A DNA stretch of 64,000 bases from the NCBI GenBank assembly GCA_903870905.1, contig CAIQEU010000072.1:1-64000 (forward strand), in the 5' to 3' direction. Under the pieces are notes generated by a model. That model saw only the letters and a program-made list of their open reading frames with translations. It was not told the origin of the DNA and made no database searches. The position numbers and the translations under genes are program-made. This document shows, piece after piece, positions 4,061-44,454 of the stretch (position 1 is its first letter; every line of letters starts with the position of its first letter). The DNA comes from an uncultured Actinomycetes bacterium. GTDB taxonomy: Bacteria > Actinomycetota > Acidimicrobiia > Acidimicrobiales > RAAP-2.

Positions 4061-7000
4061 GTGCCGTCGAGTTTCACCCACCTACACACCCACACCGAAT
4101 TCTCGATGCTCGACGGTGCGGCGCGTGTCGACGCCCTCGTGGCCAAGGCAGCTGCCGATGGCATGCCGGCCCTCGGCATCACCGACCACGGCAACATGTA
4201 TGGCGTCTTGGACTTCTACAAGGCCTGCAAGAAGGGTGGGATCAACCCCATCATCGGGACCGAGGCCTACATGGCTCTGGAGTCTCGCCACGAGCGCCCG
4301 GTGCGCCGGGGGAAGATGGACGACACCGGCGGCAACGCCGACGGGGGAGCGAAGCTCTACTACCACCTGACCCTCCTCGCTGAATCCACGCAGGGGTATC
4401 GCAACTTGCTCAAGCTCTCGTCGAGGGCTTACTTGGAGGGCTACTACTACAAGCCCCGTGTCGACTGGGAGCTCTTGGAAGAGCACCATGAAGGCCTCAT
4501 CGCCACGACGGGGTGCCTCGGTGGCGTCGTCCTCCAAGCGCTCCTCAACGACGACTTCGACGAGGCAGTGCGTCGTGCCGCTCGCCTCCAGGACATCTTC
4601 GGCAGAGACAACTTGTTCGTCGAACTCCAAGACCACGGTCTCGTCGAGCAGAAGCGCACCAACCCACTCCTCGTGGACTTGGCCCGCAAGATCGACGCCC
4701 CACTCCTCGCCACCAACGACAGCCACTACACCGACGAAGCTGACCACGTGGCCCACGACGTGCTCTTGTGCGTCCAAACCGGTGCGCTGCTGTCAGATCC
4801 CAACCGCTTCAAGTTCGACGGCCACGAGCACTACCTGAAGACTGCCGCAGAGATGCGGCACCTCTTCCAAGAGCTCCCCGAGGCCTGCGACAACACCTTG
4901 TGGATTGCCGAGCGGGCCAAGGTGGAACTCGAGCTCGGTAAGCCGTCGCTGCCGGAGTTCCCGGTGCCTGAGGAGTTCACCGGCGAGGTCTACGAACAGC
5001 GGGCGGCCAAGTACCTCCGCCATCTCACCTACGAAGGAGCGCATCGCCGCTACGGCGATGTGCTGCCCGAAGAGGTGACGAGCCGCATCGACTTCGAGCT
5101 CGGTGTCATCTCCGACATGGGCTTCGCTGCGTACTTCCTCGTGGTGTGGGACCTCATTGAGTTCGCCAAGCGAGCCAAGATTCGCGTGGGTCCCGGTCGT
5201 GGATCAGCTGCTGGGTGCTGCGTGGCCTACTGCCTCGGCATCGTGGACATCGACCCCATTCGCTACGACCTCCTCTTCGAGCGCTTCCTCAACCCGGGCC
5301 GCAAAGAGATGCCCGACATCGACATGGACTTCGACGAGCGCTTCCGCGGTCAGATGATCAAGTACGCCGCCGAGCGCTACGGCGCTGACCACGTGGCCCA
5401 GATCATCACCTTCTCGACCATGGGTGCTCGAGCAGCCGTGCGTGATGGGGCCCGGGTCCTCGGGTTCAGCCCGCAAGATGGTGACCGTGTGGCCAAGGCC
5501 ATGCCGCCCATCGTCATGGGTCGCGCCACGCCACTCCAAGCCTGCCTCGAGCCAGACCCCGACCACATGGACGGCTACAACGCTTCATCGGAACTGCGGG
5601 CGATGTACGCGAACGACCCTGTTGCCCGCCAGATCATCGACGTGGCCAAGGGCCTCGAGGGACTGCGTCGACAAGATGGCATCCACGCTGCAGCGGTCGT
5701 GATTACCAACGAGGCGCTGACGGAGTACCTCCCTATTCAGCGAAAGCCCGACTCCTCGGGCAACCCCGAGAACTCACCGATCGTCACGCAGTACGAAATG
5801 CACGGCGTGGCCGAACTCGGTCTGCTCAAGATGGACTTCCTCGGGCTGCGCAACCTCTCGGTGATCGAACGGGCGCTCGACCTCATTGAAGAAGAGACCG
5901 GAGAACGTCCCGATATCGACCACGTGCCCCTCGATGACCAGAAGGTCTACGAGATGCTCAAACGCGGCGACTCCATCGGCGTGTTCCAGCTCGAGTCCTC
6001 ACCGATGCGGGCCCTCATCCGGGCTCTGGCGCCGACCTCCTTTGATGACGTGGCCGCACTCATCGCGCTCTACCGCCCGGGTCCCATGTCGACCAACATG
6101 CACTACGACTACGCCGATCGAAAAAACGGTCGCAAGCAGATCACCTACCTGCACCCAGACTTAGAACTCATCTTGGGTGGCAACCAGGGCCTCATGATCT
6201 ACCAAGAGTCGATGATGCGTGTGGCCCAGAAGTTCGCTGGGTACACCCTGCAAGAAGCCGACAACCTCCGAAAGGCCTGTGGCAAGAAGGACCGGGCCCT
6301 CCTCGCCTCGCACCGCGAGAAGTTCATCCAAGGCACCGAGTCCGAGGGCTACGGCGCTGAGATCGGCAATCAGCTCTTCGACATCATCGAGCCCTTCGCT
6401 GACTACGCCTTCAACAAGAGCCACTCCTACGGCTACGGCTTCGTCACCTACCAAACTGCCTGGCTAAAGGCCAACTACCCCATTGAGTACTTCGCCGCAC
6501 TGCTCACGAGTGTTCGAGACTCGAAGGACAAGACGGCCATCTACTTGGCCGAGTGTCGCTCGCTCGGCATAGAAGTGCTCTGCCCCGACATCAACCGCTC
6601 GGTGGCGGACTTCGCTCCGGCTCGAGACGCCAACGGGGTGAAGGAGCAGGCCATTGTCTTCGGCATGGCGGCGATTCGCAACGTGGGGGAGAACCTGGTC
6701 GAGAAGATCGTGGGCGAGCGGAAGGCCGGCGGCCCCTTCACCTCTATCTACGACTTCTGCCGACGGGTCGACCCCATCGTGCTCAACCGTCGAGCCATGG
6801 AGTCGCTGATCAAGGCTGGGGCCTTCGATGCCTTGGGTCTCCCGCGCCAGGGCCTCGCCCTCGTCATCGACGACCTCGTCGAGCGCACCTTGAACGTGCG
6901 TCGGGACTTAGACGTCGGCATCGTCTCGCTCTTCGCTGCAGCTGCTGAAGAGCACGGCCAAGACGCCGATGAGGCCAAGTGGGAAGGGACTGCCATCCCC

Positions 7001-38976: not shown

Positions 38977-39813
38977 GTGAGCCTTCCACCGATGTGGCAC
39001 TTCGCCAGTGTCGACCTCGTGCTCATGTACGCCGCTGCCGTAGGCATCCTCGGGTGGTGGCGGCTCAGCGAGGACGCTGCTGAGCGAAGCGGTATTCGTC
39101 TCGCAATGTACCTCGCCGCATTGGTTGGCCTTGGTCTCTGCGTGTCCTCGCCACTCGACCGGTTGTCGATGCAGTGGCTGACGTGGCACATGGTGATCCA
39201 CGTCGTCGAGATGTTCTACCTGCCCCTACTCCTGGTGCTGTCAGCTCCACGGGTCTTCTTCGTGAGCGCCCTACCAACCCCTGCTCGACGGATCGGACGG
39301 CAGATTCGAGATGGACTTCGCGGGCCACTGTCCGCTCTCGGTCGTCCCGTCGTGGCGGTTGTTGGGTTCAGTGCGGTCATGGTGTTCTGGCACATCCCCG
39401 GAGTCTTCGCCTGGGCGATGGTGAATATGTGGAGTCACGATTGGCTCATGTTGCCGAGCTTCGTCGCCGTAGGTATCGGCTTCTGGCGGGTCATCGTCGT
39501 CGTCCCACCGCGAGCACGGGTGGCTGGAAGTCGCTTTCAAATCGTGGCCGTGCTCGGGACGTCCTTCGTGATGTTGGTGCTCGCCATGGCCATGGCAATC
39601 GTCGCGCACACGCCGTGGTACCCGTCCTACGTGGCCCTCCACGGAGCGACCGGAGCACTGCGCGATCAGCACTACGCGGCGGGGGTGCTCTGGATTTGTG
39701 GGGACCTCTGGGCGATTCCGGCACTGGTCGTCATCGGGACCCGCGTGCTCAGTGCTCGCGGGGGAGCGTCAGTCGCGGTTGATCGATTCTTCGGTCGAAG
39801 CGAGGCCCTCTGA
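38977..39813 (+). CDS. ctaG: cytochrome c oxidase assembly factor, caa3-type CtaG
   Basis: 278 residues with about seven membrane helices. The pattern LSSPLDRLS-like CVSSPLDRLSMQWLTWHMVIHVVEMF (in part), FWHIPGVFAWAM and RDQHYAAGVLWICGDL with conserved His identifies the caa3_CtaG family, needed for assembling aa3/caa3 oxidases, probably through copper. It precedes the oxidase genes but is separated from them by a gene on the other strand. GTG start 6 nt after TACGGT. Confidence 0.9.
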   Translation: MSLPPMWHFASVDLVLMYAAAVGILGWWRLSEDAAERSGIRLAMYLAALVGLGLCVSSPLDRLSMQWLTWHMVIHVVEMFYLPLLLVLSAPRVFFVSALPTPARRIGRQIRDGLRGPLSALGRPVVAVVGFSAVMVFWHIPGVFAWAMVNMWSHDWLMLPSFVAVGIGFWRVIVVVPPRARVAGSRFQIVAVLGTSFVMLVLAMAMAIVAHTPWYPSYVALHGATGALRDQHYAAGVLWICGDLWAIPALVVIGTRVLSARGGASVAVDRFFGRSEAL

Positions 39814-40092
39814 CGAACGACTGGCTGCTTCGAGCGCGCTGATGATCGCATCTCGTGCGGGGCGCTCGCCGCGGTAGTCGCGCAGGAGCTGGCGCCAGAG
39901 GTAGGCACCGAACCCGCCGAGAATCGGCCATTCAATGACGTAGACCCAACTGAGGCCGTTGCCGTCGAATGCTCGAACGGTCTCGACGCTCAGGGCGATG
40001 ACGCAGAGGAGAATGCCGAGTCCGCCGACGAGGTGGAGCTTCCACGCAGCCCGGACCTTGAGGTTCGACTGGCCTTCCTCTCTCGAGCTCAC
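39769..40092 (-). CDS. small membrane protein of unknown function
   Basis: 107 residues, two predicted membrane helices (LHLVGGLGILLCVIALSVET and WVYVIEWPILGGFGAYLW) with charged ends. No family recognised. It overlaps the 3' end of ctaG by 45 nt on the opposite strand. GTG start with TAAGGT 6 nt upstream supports it as real. Its place within the oxidase cluster hints at a role in the respiratory chain, which is inference only. Confidence 0.72.
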   Translation of the reverse strand: MSSREEGQSNLKVRAAWKLHLVGGLGILLCVIALSVETVRAFDGNGLSWVYVIEWPILGGFGAYLWRQLLRDYRGERPARDAIISALEAASRSSEGLASTEESINRD

Positions 40093-40243: not shown

Positions 40244-40996
40244 ATGCGGCGACTACTCGGGGCTGGAGGAGCAGTACTCCTCGGTGCCGCGGTGATTGCA
40301 CTCGTGGGTGTGGGGTTCTCTGCGCAGGCGTATTCGTCGCCTCGAGGAGTCCAGAAAGCCACGAGTCTCGGCACTGACATGACCTGTGGGAAAGCGCTCC
40401 CACATGTCACACTGTCCTTCGCCACCTACGCGGATGCATCGGGAACCAACGACGTTGGGCAGCAGGTGCACCCAGGTGGCAACCCCAGTTGGCCCTCCTA
40501 CGGGCCAACGAACATCTTCCAGGCTCCTGCGCACGCCTGTGTGACGATGCACATCACGCAGTATGACTCGGGCGGCTCGCTCAACAATCCCGTCTTCGCC
40601 AAAGTGCAGGGCACGATTGGTGACACCGAGAGCGTGGTCTCAAGCGGCAACAGCGTCAGCGGATGCGATGGAACTTCGCCGCTCACCTACGATGGCACGC
40701 CGATCTCGGCAATTCAGCCATGCGATGCCGGCCACACCTTCTCGCTCCGTGGTCTGCCAGGAATCGCACCCGGGTTCTTCGTCAACGTCCCGCTCCCACT
40801 CGCAGGAAATGCAGCGGGGGACAACGTGGGCGACCTGAACAGCGATGCGCACCAGACGGTGACGTTCTCATTCATTGCAGGCCCCAAGGGCACCTACGCC
40901 TGGAACTGCGAGTACCCCTGCGGGCTCTCGGTTGCCGGCTTCGGTGCCGTGATGGGTGCCTACGGATACATGTCGGGGTACCTCCATGTCGTCTAA
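40244..40996 (+). CDS. secreted cupredoxin-like protein in the oxidase operon
   Basis: 250 residues with an N-terminal signal or anchor (MRRLLGAGGAVLLGAAVIAL) and a beta-rich exported body. Potential copper ligands: H97, C99 and H103 (APAHACVTMHITQYD), H203, and a C-terminal C222-x3-C226-G (NCEYPCG) followed by Met and His residues, recalling the CuA loop C-x3-C-G-x2-H-x2-M but with the His/Met spacing altered. It may be an electron carrier, a copper chaperone or a divergent subunit II-like module. Strong ribosome binding site; overlaps ctaC by 11 nt, so it is cotranslated with the oxidase. Confidence 0.7.
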   Translation: MRRLLGAGGAVLLGAAVIALVGVGFSAQAYSSPRGVQKATSLGTDMTCGKALPHVTLSFATYADASGTNDVGQQVHPGGNPSWPSYGPTNIFQAPAHACVTMHITQYDSGGSLNNPVFAKVQGTIGDTESVVSSGNSVSGCDGTSPLTYDGTPISAIQPCDAGHTFSLRGLPGIAPGFFVNVPLPLAGNAAGDNVGDLNSDAHQTVTFSFIAGPKGTYAWNCEYPCGLSVAGFGAVMGAYGYMSGYLHVV

Positions 40997-41873
40997 CCAC
41001 AACCACGGCATCCACCACGCCACCTACCAGTCCATCGACGAAGAGGTGGCCCCTGGCCTCCACAAGCAGTTGCACCGCCAGCACGTGCGGGGGACGCTCT
41101 ACGTCTGGGCCCTCTTGACCGTTGGCGGCATCCTCGCAGGTCTCTACCTGACACCGATCTTGATGCCGCACATGAACTCTCCCGAGGGGCGTGCAGCTAT
41201 CGAGACCGTCAAGGTCTTCACAGTTGCCGCTGCTCCGGTGGCTGCGCTCGTGTGTGCGGTGGCGATCTACTCGCTCATCAACTCGAGGCACCGGTCGCAT
41301 CTTGATTCGCCTCCCGTTGATGGACCTCCACTCCGGGGCAACGCGCTCGCTTCGGGTTCGTGGCTCGTCGTGTCCACGCTCCTCGTGGTGTTCCTCTTGT
41401 TCTGGGGTCTCACTGAGTGGGCGTCGCAGCAGGTCGTCCACGCCGATGCGCTGCAGGTGAATGTCACGGGGCAACAGTGGCTCTGGACCTACTCCTACCC
41501 AGCACAGACGGTCATTCTTCCTGGTGGGAAGACCCTCACAGTTCCGAAGGCCGTCGATGCGACGACGCTTGACCTCCCGATTAACGTTCCAGTCCAATTC
41601 AACGTGACATCAAAGGACGTCACTCACGGTTTCTGGCCCACGCAACTCGGTATCCAAGGCGACGCCAATCCGGGAGTGAACGACGTCTTGCGCACGACGC
41701 CAGACCACCTCGGCAAGTTCCAGGTGCGCTGCAGTCAGATCTGTGGCCTCTACCACGCCTACATGTACACCCAAGCTTCAGTTATTCCTGACAGCGCCTT
41801 CACGGCGTGGATTGCCCAAGGGGATGCTGGACGGGTCCTCACCTCAGCAAAGATCACAGGGGGAGTGCGATGA
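40986..41873 (+). CDS. ctaC: cytochrome c oxidase subunit II
   Basis: 295 residues. A His-rich N-terminus is followed by two membrane helices (LYVWALLTVGGILAGLYL and, after a loop, SWLVVSTLLVVFLLFWGL) and a periplasmic cupredoxin domain with the complete CuA site: His in DVTHGFW and CSQICGLYHAYM. No cytochrome c domain is fused, so electrons come from a separate donor. The ATG at 40986 lies within the preceding gene; ends in an ATGA overlap with ctaD. Confidence 0.94.
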   Translation: MSSNHNHGIHHATYQSIDEEVAPGLHKQLHRQHVRGTLYVWALLTVGGILAGLYLTPILMPHMNSPEGRAAIETVKVFTVAAAPVAALVCAVAIYSLINSRHRSHLDSPPVDGPPLRGNALASGSWLVVSTLLVVFLLFWGLTEWASQQVVHADALQVNVTGQQWLWTYSYPAQTVILPGGKTLTVPKAVDATTLDLPINVPVQFNVTSKDVTHGFWPTQLGIQGDANPGVNDVLRTTPDHLGKFQVRCSQICGLYHAYMYTQASVIPDSAFTAWIAQGDAGRVLTSAKITGGVR

Positions 41874-43792
41874 CGACCACTCAAGAACGCCGCCTCGAGG
41901 ACACCGTCCTCGGCTCAGCGGCTGGACGCTTCTACCGCCATCAGAACTTCGGCACCGGGCTGCTCGGTGGGGTTGGCCTCGGCTTCTTGCTCTGGCTCCT
42001 TGGCGAGTACACCGTGAACAACAACCCGAACTATGGAACCGACATGGTCGTCACCTTGACGATGCTCGGTTGGGTCATCGGGTTCAATCTCGGCGTCGGG
42101 ACGTTCAACGCAGTGCTCCACTGGATTCTTGGTCACGACCAGACGAAGGAAGATGAGCTCTACGCTGCAGGAGTTGGGCAAGGAAAGTCGAGGTACTGGA
42201 AGTACTGCACCGACCACAAGGTGGTTGGAACGCAGTACCTGATTCTGGTCTTCGTGCTCTTCTTCATCGGCGGGACCCTGGCGATGATGATCCGCACCCA
42301 GCTGCTCACGCCGAACAGTTCGTTCCTCAGTCCGCAGACCTACAACGCCATCGTGTCCATTCACGGCATGACCATGATCATCGCCACCATCATCATGGTG
42401 TCGGGGCCATTCGCAAACTTCATCATGCCAATCATGATCGGAGCGAAGGACATGGCATTCCCTCGACTCAACGCCATGAGCATTTGGGTCATCGTGTCGG
42501 CGGTTCCGCCGCTGATGGCCACGTTCTTCGTTGGTGGTGTGAATGCGGGATGGACGACGTATGCTCCGCTCTCGGTTCAAGATGGTCCTGCCATGGTGTG
42601 TTTCGCCTTCACGATCATCACCTTCGTGGTGTCGGTGACCGTCGCCGGTATCAACACCTTGATCACGGTGCTCACCATGCGAGCCCCAGGGATGACGTTC
42701 TCTCGGATGCCGGTCTTCGTCTGGGCCAGTGTGATCGGTGGAGCGCTGGGCCTCTACGCCATGCCGGCGTTCCTGCTCGACATGACGATGATGGTGAGCG
42801 ACCACGCCACCGGAACGAGCTTCTTCGTCTCGGCGCAAGGTGGATCGGGCTGGCTCTGGGAGAATGTGTTCTGGATCATGGGTCACCCCGAGGTCTATGT
42901 GATCTTGATCCCACCGGTTGGTGCACTCATGGAAGTGTTCTCAACATTCTCAAGAAAGCCCATGTTCGCCTACAAGATGATCATCGGCGCGATGATCGGC
43001 ATCGCAGGGCTCTCGATCATGGTGTGGGCGCACCACATGTTCACGACCGGTTGGGCTCCCGACCTTGCAGGTCCGTTCATGTTGACGACGGAACTCATCT
43101 CGATCCCCACCGGCATTATCTTCCTCTGTGCGATCGGTACGATGTGGCGAGGATCGAACTGGGTTCGCCTACCGATGTACTTCGGGTTCCTGTTCATCTG
43201 GAACTTCATCGTCGGAGGCGTGACGGGTATCTACCTCTCCGATGTCCCTGCTGATGACTACTTCCACGGAAATATGTTCGTCACCGCACACTTCCACTAC
43301 ACGCTGCTCGGTGGAGCGATGATCGCTGCAACTGCTGGTCTGTGCTACTGGTTCCCGAAGGTGACGGGTCGCATGCTCGACGAGAAGACTGGTCGTGCTG
43401 CGTTCTGGCTCATCGCCATTGGGTTCCAGGTCACGTACCTCGCACAGTTCTACGAGGGCTTCAAGGGTATGCCTCGACGGGTGGCGAACTACGACCCGAT
43501 CTTCGCACCAGAGAACGTCGTCTCGTCCATTGGGGCGTACGTGTTGATGGCCGGGTGGATCGTGCTGCTCTACGCACTCGTCAGCTCATGGCGCAGTGGC
43601 TCAATTGCGCCGGCGAATCCATGGTCGGCCAAGTCGCTCGAATGGCAGACGCTTACGCCGGTTCCTCTCGAGAACTTCCTTGAGGACGTGACCGTGGTGA
43701 ACGACGCCTACGGCTACGGCGAGCGTGCAGAGCTGCAAGTGCACGCGGTCTTCGGGTCGACGAGTGATGCACACCACGGAGAGGGGCACTGA
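41870..43792 (+). CDS. ctaD: cytochrome c oxidase subunit I with N-terminal extension
   Basis: 640 residues, A-type heme-copper oxidase. Ligands: H165 (low-spin heme), H339 and Y343 in GHPEVY (CuB, cross-linked Tyr), H388/H389 (CuB), H474 and H476 (HFHYTL). D194 in GAKDMAFPRLN is the D-channel entry. The canonical core starts only at about residue 112 (YCTDHKVVGTQYL). Before it lie two further predicted helices (about 29-46 and 59-87), so there may be 14 helices instead of 12. ATG overlaps ctaC; the stop overlaps ctaE. Confidence 0.95.
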   Translation: MTTTQERRLEDTVLGSAAGRFYRHQNFGTGLLGGVGLGFLLWLLGEYTVNNNPNYGTDMVVTLTMLGWVIGFNLGVGTFNAVLHWILGHDQTKEDELYAAGVGQGKSRYWKYCTDHKVVGTQYLILVFVLFFIGGTLAMMIRTQLLTPNSSFLSPQTYNAIVSIHGMTMIIATIIMVSGPFANFIMPIMIGAKDMAFPRLNAMSIWVIVSAVPPLMATFFVGGVNAGWTTYAPLSVQDGPAMVCFAFTIITFVVSVTVAGINTLITVLTMRAPGMTFSRMPVFVWASVIGGALGLYAMPAFLLDMTMMVSDHATGTSFFVSAQGGSGWLWENVFWIMGHPEVYVILIPPVGALMEVFSTFSRKPMFAYKMIIGAMIGIAGLSIMVWAHHMFTTGWAPDLAGPFMLTTELISIPTGIIFLCAIGTMWRGSNWVRLPMYFGFLFIWNFIVGGVTGIYLSDVPADDYFHGNMFVTAHFHYTLLGGAMIAATAGLCYWFPKVTGRMLDEKTGRAAFWLIAIGFQVTYLAQFYEGFKGMPRRVANYDPIFAPENVVSSIGAYVLMAGWIVLLYALVSSWRSGSIAPANPWSAKSLEWQTLTPVPLENFLEDVTVVNDAYGYGERAELQVHAVFGSTSDAHHGEGH

Positions 43793-44454
43793 TGTCTGCA
43801 ACCCAAGAACACGACGTCACGCATGAGGGTGGTCACCACGACACCCCCGAGCAGCGCGACCGCAAGGAACTCTCGGCGCTGGTGCTGTTCATCGCCGGTG
43901 ACGCAATCTTCTTGATCCTTGAGATCTTGGCGTGGTTCTACCTGCGAGCGCTCGACACGCAGAATGGTTGGCGATTCAGCAAGGCCACGCCTGCGAACCC
44001 TGCGACTTCAGGATCGAACAACCCCCACACCATCGTGCACGAAGTCGCCAAAGTTGCACCCGGATGGACCATCGTGATTGCAGCGCTGGCCCTCATCGCG
44101 GGACTCGCAGCATGGTGGGCCGAAGGCAATGCTCGCAAGGGCGTCGCTCACGCACCGATTCTCGCCGCTGCCCTTGTCGTGGCACTGGCGGGGATCGGAG
44201 CACAGGTGTACCAGTTCCAGATCCTTCCGTTCTCGACCACCGATGGCACGTATGCATCGATGTTCGAGTTCTTCATGGGCTCGGTGCTCGCGCACCTCTT
44301 CTTGGTCGTCGTCGTACTCCTCGGCGTGTGGAATCGAGCGCGCAAGGGGATGTACAATGAGGTCTGGTACCAGATCCGACTCGCACGGGTTTGGACCCTC
44401 TGGGTAGCAATTTCCGGCATCTTCCTGGCCGTCACGGCAATCTTCTTCGCCTAG
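43792..44454 (+). CDS. ctaE: cytochrome c oxidase subunit III
   Basis: 220 residues with five predicted helices, the short form of subunit III. ALVLFIAGDAIFLILEILAWFYLR, EFFMGSVLAHLFLVVVVLL and a final hydrophobic segment are typical. His-rich soluble N-terminus (HDVTHEGGHHD). Begins at the ATG overlapping the ctaD stop. No subunit IV gene follows; the operon ends in a strong inverted repeat. Confidence 0.9.
   Translation: MSATQEHDVTHEGGHHDTPEQRDRKELSALVLFIAGDAIFLILEILAWFYLRALDTQNGWRFSKATPANPATSGSNNPHTIVHEVAKVAPGWTIVIAALALIAGLAAWWAEGNARKGVAHAPILAAALVVALAGIGAQVYQFQILPFSTTDGTYASMFEFFMGSVLAHLFLVVVVLLGVWNRARKGMYNEVWYQIRLARVWTLWVAISGIFLAVTAIFFA

Follow-up and report, generated by a model that had tools for sequence, protein, structure and literature searches.

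Which part does a secreted protein of no recognised family play when its gene stands at the head of a cytochrome oxidase operon? The question is raised by a gene in the 64,000 nucleotides from an uncultured actinobacterium that we analysed as a whole (the window). A first-pass annotation of this DNA had described its product as cupredoxin-like and had offered three roles for it, namely a dedicated electron donor, a copper-insertion factor or an extra periplasmic subunit. Here we argue that the protein is probably an AcoP-like cupredoxin, distinguished by an unusual His/Cys/Cys/Met(/Met) copper site, through which electrons enter a second, non-canonical CuA oxidase. Of the three roles it is thus the donor or entry subunit that we favour, as no free cytochrome c was seen in 22 genomes carrying the gene, and copper insertion is left as a rival.

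Results and Discussion

The open reading frame in question is a real gene, which is followed on the same strand by ctaC, ctaD and ctaE (Table 1). As had been annotated, it heads this series and, the ATG of ctaC lying at 40986, has 11 nt in common with ctaC. Its product matched no Pfam and no NCBIfam family at the cut-offs used, CtaC matched COX2 as its only Pfam family, and the CtaE-like protein gave no Pfam match, its position being conserved in related loci. A cytochrome c domain is absent from CtaC and from all six operon-region proteins scanned with Pfam, in agreement with the first reading of the sequence. The genome to which the window belongs (2.1 Mb in 81 contigs) contains two COX1 genes, and the second oxidase, located on contig 39, adjoins reading frames taken as ctaC, ctaD and ctaE and as qcrC, qcrA and qcrB, all named by reading of the sequence together with COX1 and cytochrome c profile matches. 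A small membrane protein with the motif GNGLSWxYxxEWP is encoded by a small divergent gene of the window (39769–40092, minus strand; no Pfam match) and again in locus L115 (8718–9005, minus strand), and thus adjoins oxidase operons of two different types.

Table 1: Features of the window (positions of the 64,000 nt stretch) and, in the last three rows, cupredoxins of related operons (positions of the respective locus).
Feature	Position	Strand	Basis
Caa3_CtaG-type assembly factor, upstream of the operon	38977–39813	+	Pfam Caa3_CtaG, 1.2e-33
Candidate cupredoxin gene	40244–40996	+	ATG start, ORF of 250 aa; five residues in 114 of 114 relatives; two AlphaFold models
N-terminal transmembrane helix, predicted membrane anchor (codons 1–28)	40244–40327	+	AlphaFold helix 2–28 (49-row model); hydrophobic sequence
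His164 codon, candidate copper ligand	40733–40735	+	114 of 114; pairs with the first CuA His in the profile alignment with CtaC
Candidate ligand loop C222-EYP-C226-x10-M237-x5-M243 (codons 222–243)	40907–40972	+	C222, P225, C226, M237 and M243 each 114 of 114
ctaC, oxidase subunit II, complete CuA motif CSQICGLYHAYM	40986–41873	+	Pfam COX2, 3.2e-14
ctaD, oxidase subunit I with N-terminal extension	41870–43792	+	Pfam COX1, 9.7e-123
ctaE, subunit III-like	43792–44454	+	Named from position and related operons
C-x6-H-x4-M cupredoxins after ctaE	L132, L133, L134, L136, L137, L138, L139
Plastocyanin-like proteins at the operon	L140, L145
CtaC with C-terminally fused cupredoxin	L135, 5349–6404	+	Pfam COX2 148–226, Cupredoxin_1 256–348

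Using a genome search we found a homologue encoded in 33 of 61 related genomes, so the NCEYPCG...M...M ending is more than chance, and in the wider class a family match was obtained in 18 of 149 genomes. A scan of named genomes gave 188 encoding stretches, from which the best-scoring 79 loci (L033–L111) were retained. Among these 79 are Acidimicrobiaceae, Candidatus Planktophila, Nanopelagicaceae, Pseudonocardiales, Frankiales and Streptosporangiales, nearly all of them metagenome bins but including the complete chromosome of Actinobacteria bacterium IMCC19121. Judged from these searches, the protein can be regarded as a member of a family which is unnamed in Pfam and NCBIfam and has many relatives in lake and soil actinobacteria.

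The oxidase is a constant neighbour of the named copies: of the 67 copies with at least 2.5 kb of sequence downstream, every one has a ctaD in the same orientation no more than 2.5 kb behind it (among the best 79 of 188 loci; the 12 others lie too near a contig end and were left out), a conserved gene order which supports the earlier statement that the protein is translated with the oxidase. The adjacent subunit II seems intact throughout, as the motif CxxxCxxxHxxM is kept in 85 of 85 CtaC-like pieces that reach the site; from the five pieces without it four are incomplete at the end of a contig or locus and one is a cupredoxin. Two tandem cupredoxin-headed oxidase operons are present in one actinobacterial bin (L052, 314–988 and 4440–5114, plus strand), and with the second copy only ctaD and ctaE, and no ctaC, were reported by tblastn. 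Co-occurrence with the extended ctaD, which had been proposed as a check, holds in one direction: every named oxidase-type copy with enough flanking sequence stands beside such a ctaD, and in the 149 class genomes gene and ctaD share a contig in 15 of the 16 genomes with an oxidase-type copy and lie on two contigs in the remaining one (G191). In the other direction a strict co-occurrence had to be rejected, as at least 13 other class genomes possess an extended ctaD (match starting at query position 63 or less) and lack the gene.

In the wide unnamed loci ctaD is linked in 10 of 15 cases, and the remaining five (L114, L117, L123, L124 and L149) show another setting. It is clearest in L124, where the family gene is followed by an FeS protein with a Tat-like signal and by an NrfD-like protein, with two-component genes on the opposite strand; Pfam identified NrfD in L123 (3.2e-26) and Fer4 domains in L114, and no CuA protein was recognised in the NrfD/FeS clusters with family members. 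Homologues outside oxidase operons and with another role had been named as a finding that would speak against the first reading. The first half of this was indeed found, as distant members precede an NrfD/FeS module and so appear to have a different partner, which by its gene content would still be respiratory. In the same loci and in L150, NrfD-like proteins, Fer4 FeS proteins and CxxPC cupredoxins, the latter often in tandem, occur together with two-component regulators, and such clusters may possibly represent a quinol-to-cupredoxin module.

Structure prediction, also suggested at the outset as a check, gave one membrane helix followed by a β-barrel in both AlphaFold models, calculated from alignments of 29 rows (pLDDT 84.8, pTM 0.80, helix 2–26) and 49 rows (pLDDT 87.0, pTM 0.84, helix 2–28). 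In VIA-align, where rows less than one Z unit apart count as ties, all 50 matches listed for the 29-row model (Z 7.9–9.5) and all 50 listed for the 49-row model (Z 7.6–9.4) are cupredoxin-fold chains, confirming the description as cupredoxin-like. By its predicted β-sandwich the protein thus belongs to the cupredoxin superfamily. The highest identities among the matches listed, mostly 22–30%, are found for CuA domains, as with 1qni_A (Z 8.4, 2.4 Å, 101 aligned residues, 30%), 6pty_A (Z 8.3, 2.6 Å, 102 aligned, 24%) and 2cua_A (Z 7.9, 2.7 Å, 102 aligned, 22%), the value for 7deg_B being 18%. In the model H164 is located in strand 162–170, C222 right after strand 216–221 and M243 right before strand 244–249, which is where cupredoxins have their copper ligands; in the ligand loop itself the model is least certain (block means 66 and 59). 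Together, the cupredoxin fold and the partnership with the oxidase are well supported.

For the analysis of conserved residues we aligned 114 relatives, obtained from 143 profile hits after removal of duplicates with the same last 200 residues. H164, C222, P225, C226, M237, M243 and G245 are invariant in all 114, and D108 (109), G216 (113) and W220 (111) are nearly so. The 79 named loci had been retrieved with two peptide patterns, WNCE[YF]PC and a Met motif, which contain C222, C226, M237 and M243 and so inflate their apparent conservation in L033–L111; H164 is in neither pattern, and alignment A1 (29 rows), built with 28 homologues from whole-genome searches performed without peptide patterns, likewise has all five residues invariant. 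The ligands considered originally do not survive this comparison, as C99, H103 and H203 are kept in only 6, 3 and 16 of the 114 relatives and H97, kept in 69, is an unlikely ligand; the sole invariant histidine, His164, had been missed and Met237 and Met243 had not been singled out. The resulting loop, C-x3-C-x10-M-x5-M, contains no invariant histidine among the 114 relatives, and the length between C226 and M237 is 10 residues in 39, 11 in 68, 4 in five and 12 in one of the 113 sequences fitting the pattern. Position 240, a tyrosine in the window, is variable (M in 33, Y in 25, L in 13 and Q in 12 of 114). We infer that the protein binds copper via His164, Cys222, Cys226 and Met243, perhaps with Met237, an invariant His/Cys/Cys/Met/Met set that to our knowledge differs from every standard blue, green, red or purple copper site.

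To which cupredoxins is the family related? In a profile–profile alignment with the CtaC proteins of the same operons, H164, C222, C226 and M243 fall on the first His, the two Cys and the Met of the CuA site, the second CuA His stands opposite residue 240, and M237 lies inside a 10-residue insertion (local P 2.4e-5). From the features of a COX2-type CuA site C-x3-C, the first His and the Met are therefore present, and the second His, which CuA has four residues beyond C-x3-C, is absent, its aligned position being variable in the 114 relatives. The C-x3-C-G spacing and this alignment bear out the remark that the NCEYPCG end imitates part of the CuA loop. The P value in hhalign was 5e-5 against CtaC, 9.5e-6 against eight plastocyanin-like sequences and 0.45–0.96 against four unrelated families used as controls; as the plastocyanin-like value shows, this proves membership in the superfamily and not descent from CuA, and the profile comparison does not tell a CuA relative from a blue-copper relative. 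Searching the PDB with the 29-row profile placed auracyanin and related blue copper chains among the top matches (E 0.003–0.007), and the 49-row profile gave weaker matches (best E 0.011 vs 0.003) with copper nitrite reductases first, so that the sequence profiles, too, only show the superfamily. Phmmer with the single protein returned one chance match from the PDB, Pfam detected Cupredoxin_1 in 3 (best E 0.028) and COX2 in 2 (best E 0.002) of the 29 aligned members, and a CoxB match was seen in 2 of 49 members (best E 2.7e-5).

With the CuA domains of CtaC/CoxB and of nitrous-oxide reductase the protein thus shares the fold, C-x3-C-G and the aligned His and Met, but it differs from them in the absent second His, in about ten extra loop residues with an invariant Met and in having only one membrane helix; moreover, the gene that follows codes for a complete CuA protein. 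The CuA centre of nitrous-oxide reductase is held by two Cys, two His, one Met and one carbonyl, with one copper bound by a His–Met pair and the other by the second His and the carbonyl (PMC11573801, in excerpt). Compared with it, the site described here appears to keep the ligands of the first copper without the His of the second, whose place Met237 could fill. We therefore consider, as a tentative and somewhat doubtful elaboration, a binuclear CuA-like Cu2S2 centre in which the solvent-side second His is replaced by Met237, giving a Cys2-His-Met2 site that would link a bcc or NrfD/FeS complex to the second CuA oxidase in actinobacteria devoid of free cytochrome c. We know of no other natural CuA-type centre in a free-standing carrier protein, so such a centre would be the first.

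Two assignments to known copper-insertion proteins were rejected: Sco-type proteins have a thioredoxin fold, as opposed to the cupredoxin fold predicted here, and the PCuAC motif H(M)x10Mx21HxM (PMC9145763, in excerpt) is not present, the sole invariant His, H164, being upstream of both invariant Met.

The favoured role rests in part on the electron supply in genomes carrying the gene, for which we analysed G000 and 21 genomes reached through the loci. At least two COX1 matches, some of them fragments, were found in 21 of these 22 genomes. In all 22 a single place per genome, with one or two domain matches, accounts for every hit of the Cytochrome_CBB3 and Cytochrom_C profiles, and we read it as the diheme QcrC. 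Thus with two Pfam profiles no free cytochrome c was seen in the 22 draft genomes, where unusual cytochromes or gaps are possible. NrfD is present in three and absent from 19 of them. According to excerpts of PMC8361435 actinobacteria have no free cytochrome c and pass electrons inside an obligate bcc-aa3 supercomplex, which in its canonical form needs no separate donor. Hence the diheme subunit could reduce the second oxidase directly; lacking a free cytochrome c, this oxidase must either touch QcrC directly or be served by some other carrier, for which the copper protein of the same gene cluster is the obvious candidate.

The absence of a free cytochrome c and the presence of other cupredoxins in related operons both argue for an electron-donor or entry role. 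Of the 13 class genomes that, among the matches listed, have an extended ctaD and lack the gene, nine have a different cupredoxin at the operon; counted per operon these are 10 of 17, the other seven having none in the stretches read. These replacements are mostly C-x6-H-x4-M cupredoxins (Table 1), and all five tested (L132, L137, L140, L145 and L135) scored above the Pfam cut-off. In the stretches read from the remaining four genomes no other cupredoxin is present at the operon, showing that a cupredoxin is not obligatory. Oxidases of the caa3 type have a cytochrome c attached as electron-entry part, and a cupredoxin attached to or fused with the CuA subunit II is what one would expect of such a part. 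The C-x6-H-x4-M proteins of L132 (8507–9265, plus strand), L133 and L139 are lipoprotein-like and contain, within the cupredoxin domain, low-complexity Met/Asp/Gly/Gln repeats, which could hold extra copper.

As a mechanism we propose that the cupredoxin, made together with the oxidase, would be tethered by its single helix to the outer face of the membrane, accept electrons singly and hand them to the CuA of CtaC, whether it stays bound as a subunit or shuttles on its tether. The simplest source of these electrons would be the diheme subunit of the bcc complex, read as QcrC. The inferred direction of transfer would then be from quinol via bcc, the diheme subunit, the copper site of the cupredoxin and CuA to oxygen. 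Sulfocyanin serves archaeal oxidases, and the proposed role would be like that of sulfocyanin or AcoP but with a different metal site. AcoP from Acidithiobacillus ferrooxidans is a membrane-bound green cupredoxin which receives electrons from a diheme cytochrome c and for which interactions with both cytochrome c and the oxidase are described, its proposed ligands being H85 and C159-x6-H166-x4-M171 (PMC4059628, PMC5982212, both in excerpt). Like AcoP, the protein consists of a single cupredoxin domain behind an N-terminal membrane helix and is encoded among oxidase genes; compared by description only, it differs in having no His after the Cys and in an invariant second Cys (C-x3-C) and second Met. 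It is the replacement cupredoxins of related operons that have the C-x6-H-x4-M spacing of AcoP (excerpt of PMC4059628). No AcoP entry was recognised among the best 50 matches listed.

The main rival to electron entry, and in our view an unlikely one, is a copper-insertion factor for CuA (or CuB), in which the Cys pair, His and Met would bind Cu(I) and deliver it to CtaC. The conserved residues would fit a copper chaperone as well, a CxxxC pair with a distant His is also the ligand set of Sco on its thioredoxin fold (PMC7558416, in excerpt), CupA from S. pneumoniae and the metal-binding domain of CopA, both Cu(I) proteins of cupredoxin fold, are among the best structural matches listed (Z 9.2 and 9.3), and six of the 22 carrier genomes lack a SCO1-SenC match above the cut-off. 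CupA, a Cu(I) chaperone, resembles the protein in its membrane-anchored cupredoxin fold and its thiolate and Met ligands, but has no link to an oxidase and CopA as partner (PMC7558416, in excerpt), a distinction made by description and not by residues. However, insertion factors are already at hand, since in 12 of the 22 carriers a separate SCO homologue shares the contig of the linked ctaD and lies no more than about 5 kb from it, and the window has the Caa3_CtaG-type protein upstream, so that a further one is less needed. Moreover, family members accompany the NrfD/FeS module, where no CuA protein was recognised, and related operons substitute ordinary His/Cys/His/Met cupredoxins. Just upstream of ctaG and the cupredoxin operon in L081 a long reading frame (4956–6692, plus strand) combines an N-terminal multi-helix membrane part with a C-terminal SCO-like part, and similar long SCO-bearing frames are found near the cupredoxin operon in other genomes.

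An ordinary blue-copper donor, in which Cys226 does not bind the metal and some other residue supplies the second nitrogen, seems very unlikely. The protein has the fold and the proposed carrier role in common with auracyanin, plastocyanin, sulfocyanin and rusticyanin, some type 1 carriers work with oxidases, and besides the profile matches described above there is a resemblance to auracyanin and plastocyanin in the C-x2-P element and in the ending M-x-G-x-[LV]-x-V. Yet a second invariant His is missing among the 114 sequences, and the C-x3-C spacing and His164 match CuA and not the Cys-x(n)-His pattern of type 1 carriers, whose His is here replaced by Cys. Very unlikely is also a redox-silent structural subunit, a former CuA domain that only stabilises the complex after loss of one ligand: the CuA His has given way to a variable residue at position 240, but all 114 sequences keep five potential metal ligands amid positions that vary, and copies also occur outside oxidase operons.

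Conclusion

Oxidase-associated cupredoxins as such are already known, and membrane-bound ‘Cup’ cupredoxins are mentioned for iron-oxidising bacteria (PMC8239418, in excerpt). In the open-access literature searched, as abstracts and excerpts, we found no description of a C-x2-P-C cupredoxin of actinobacterial oxidase operons, and the protein appears to be a new form of this known kind. Should its site prove to be binuclear, with a Met where CuA has the second His, it would even be new in kind. The whole family, whose member in the window matches no Pfam or NCBIfam model at the cut-offs used, would gain an annotation. Among the carriers are Planktophila and Nanopelagicaceae, which rank with the most abundant bacteria of fresh water, and how the second CuA oxidase of the carriers is fed is a question that this cupredoxin could answer.
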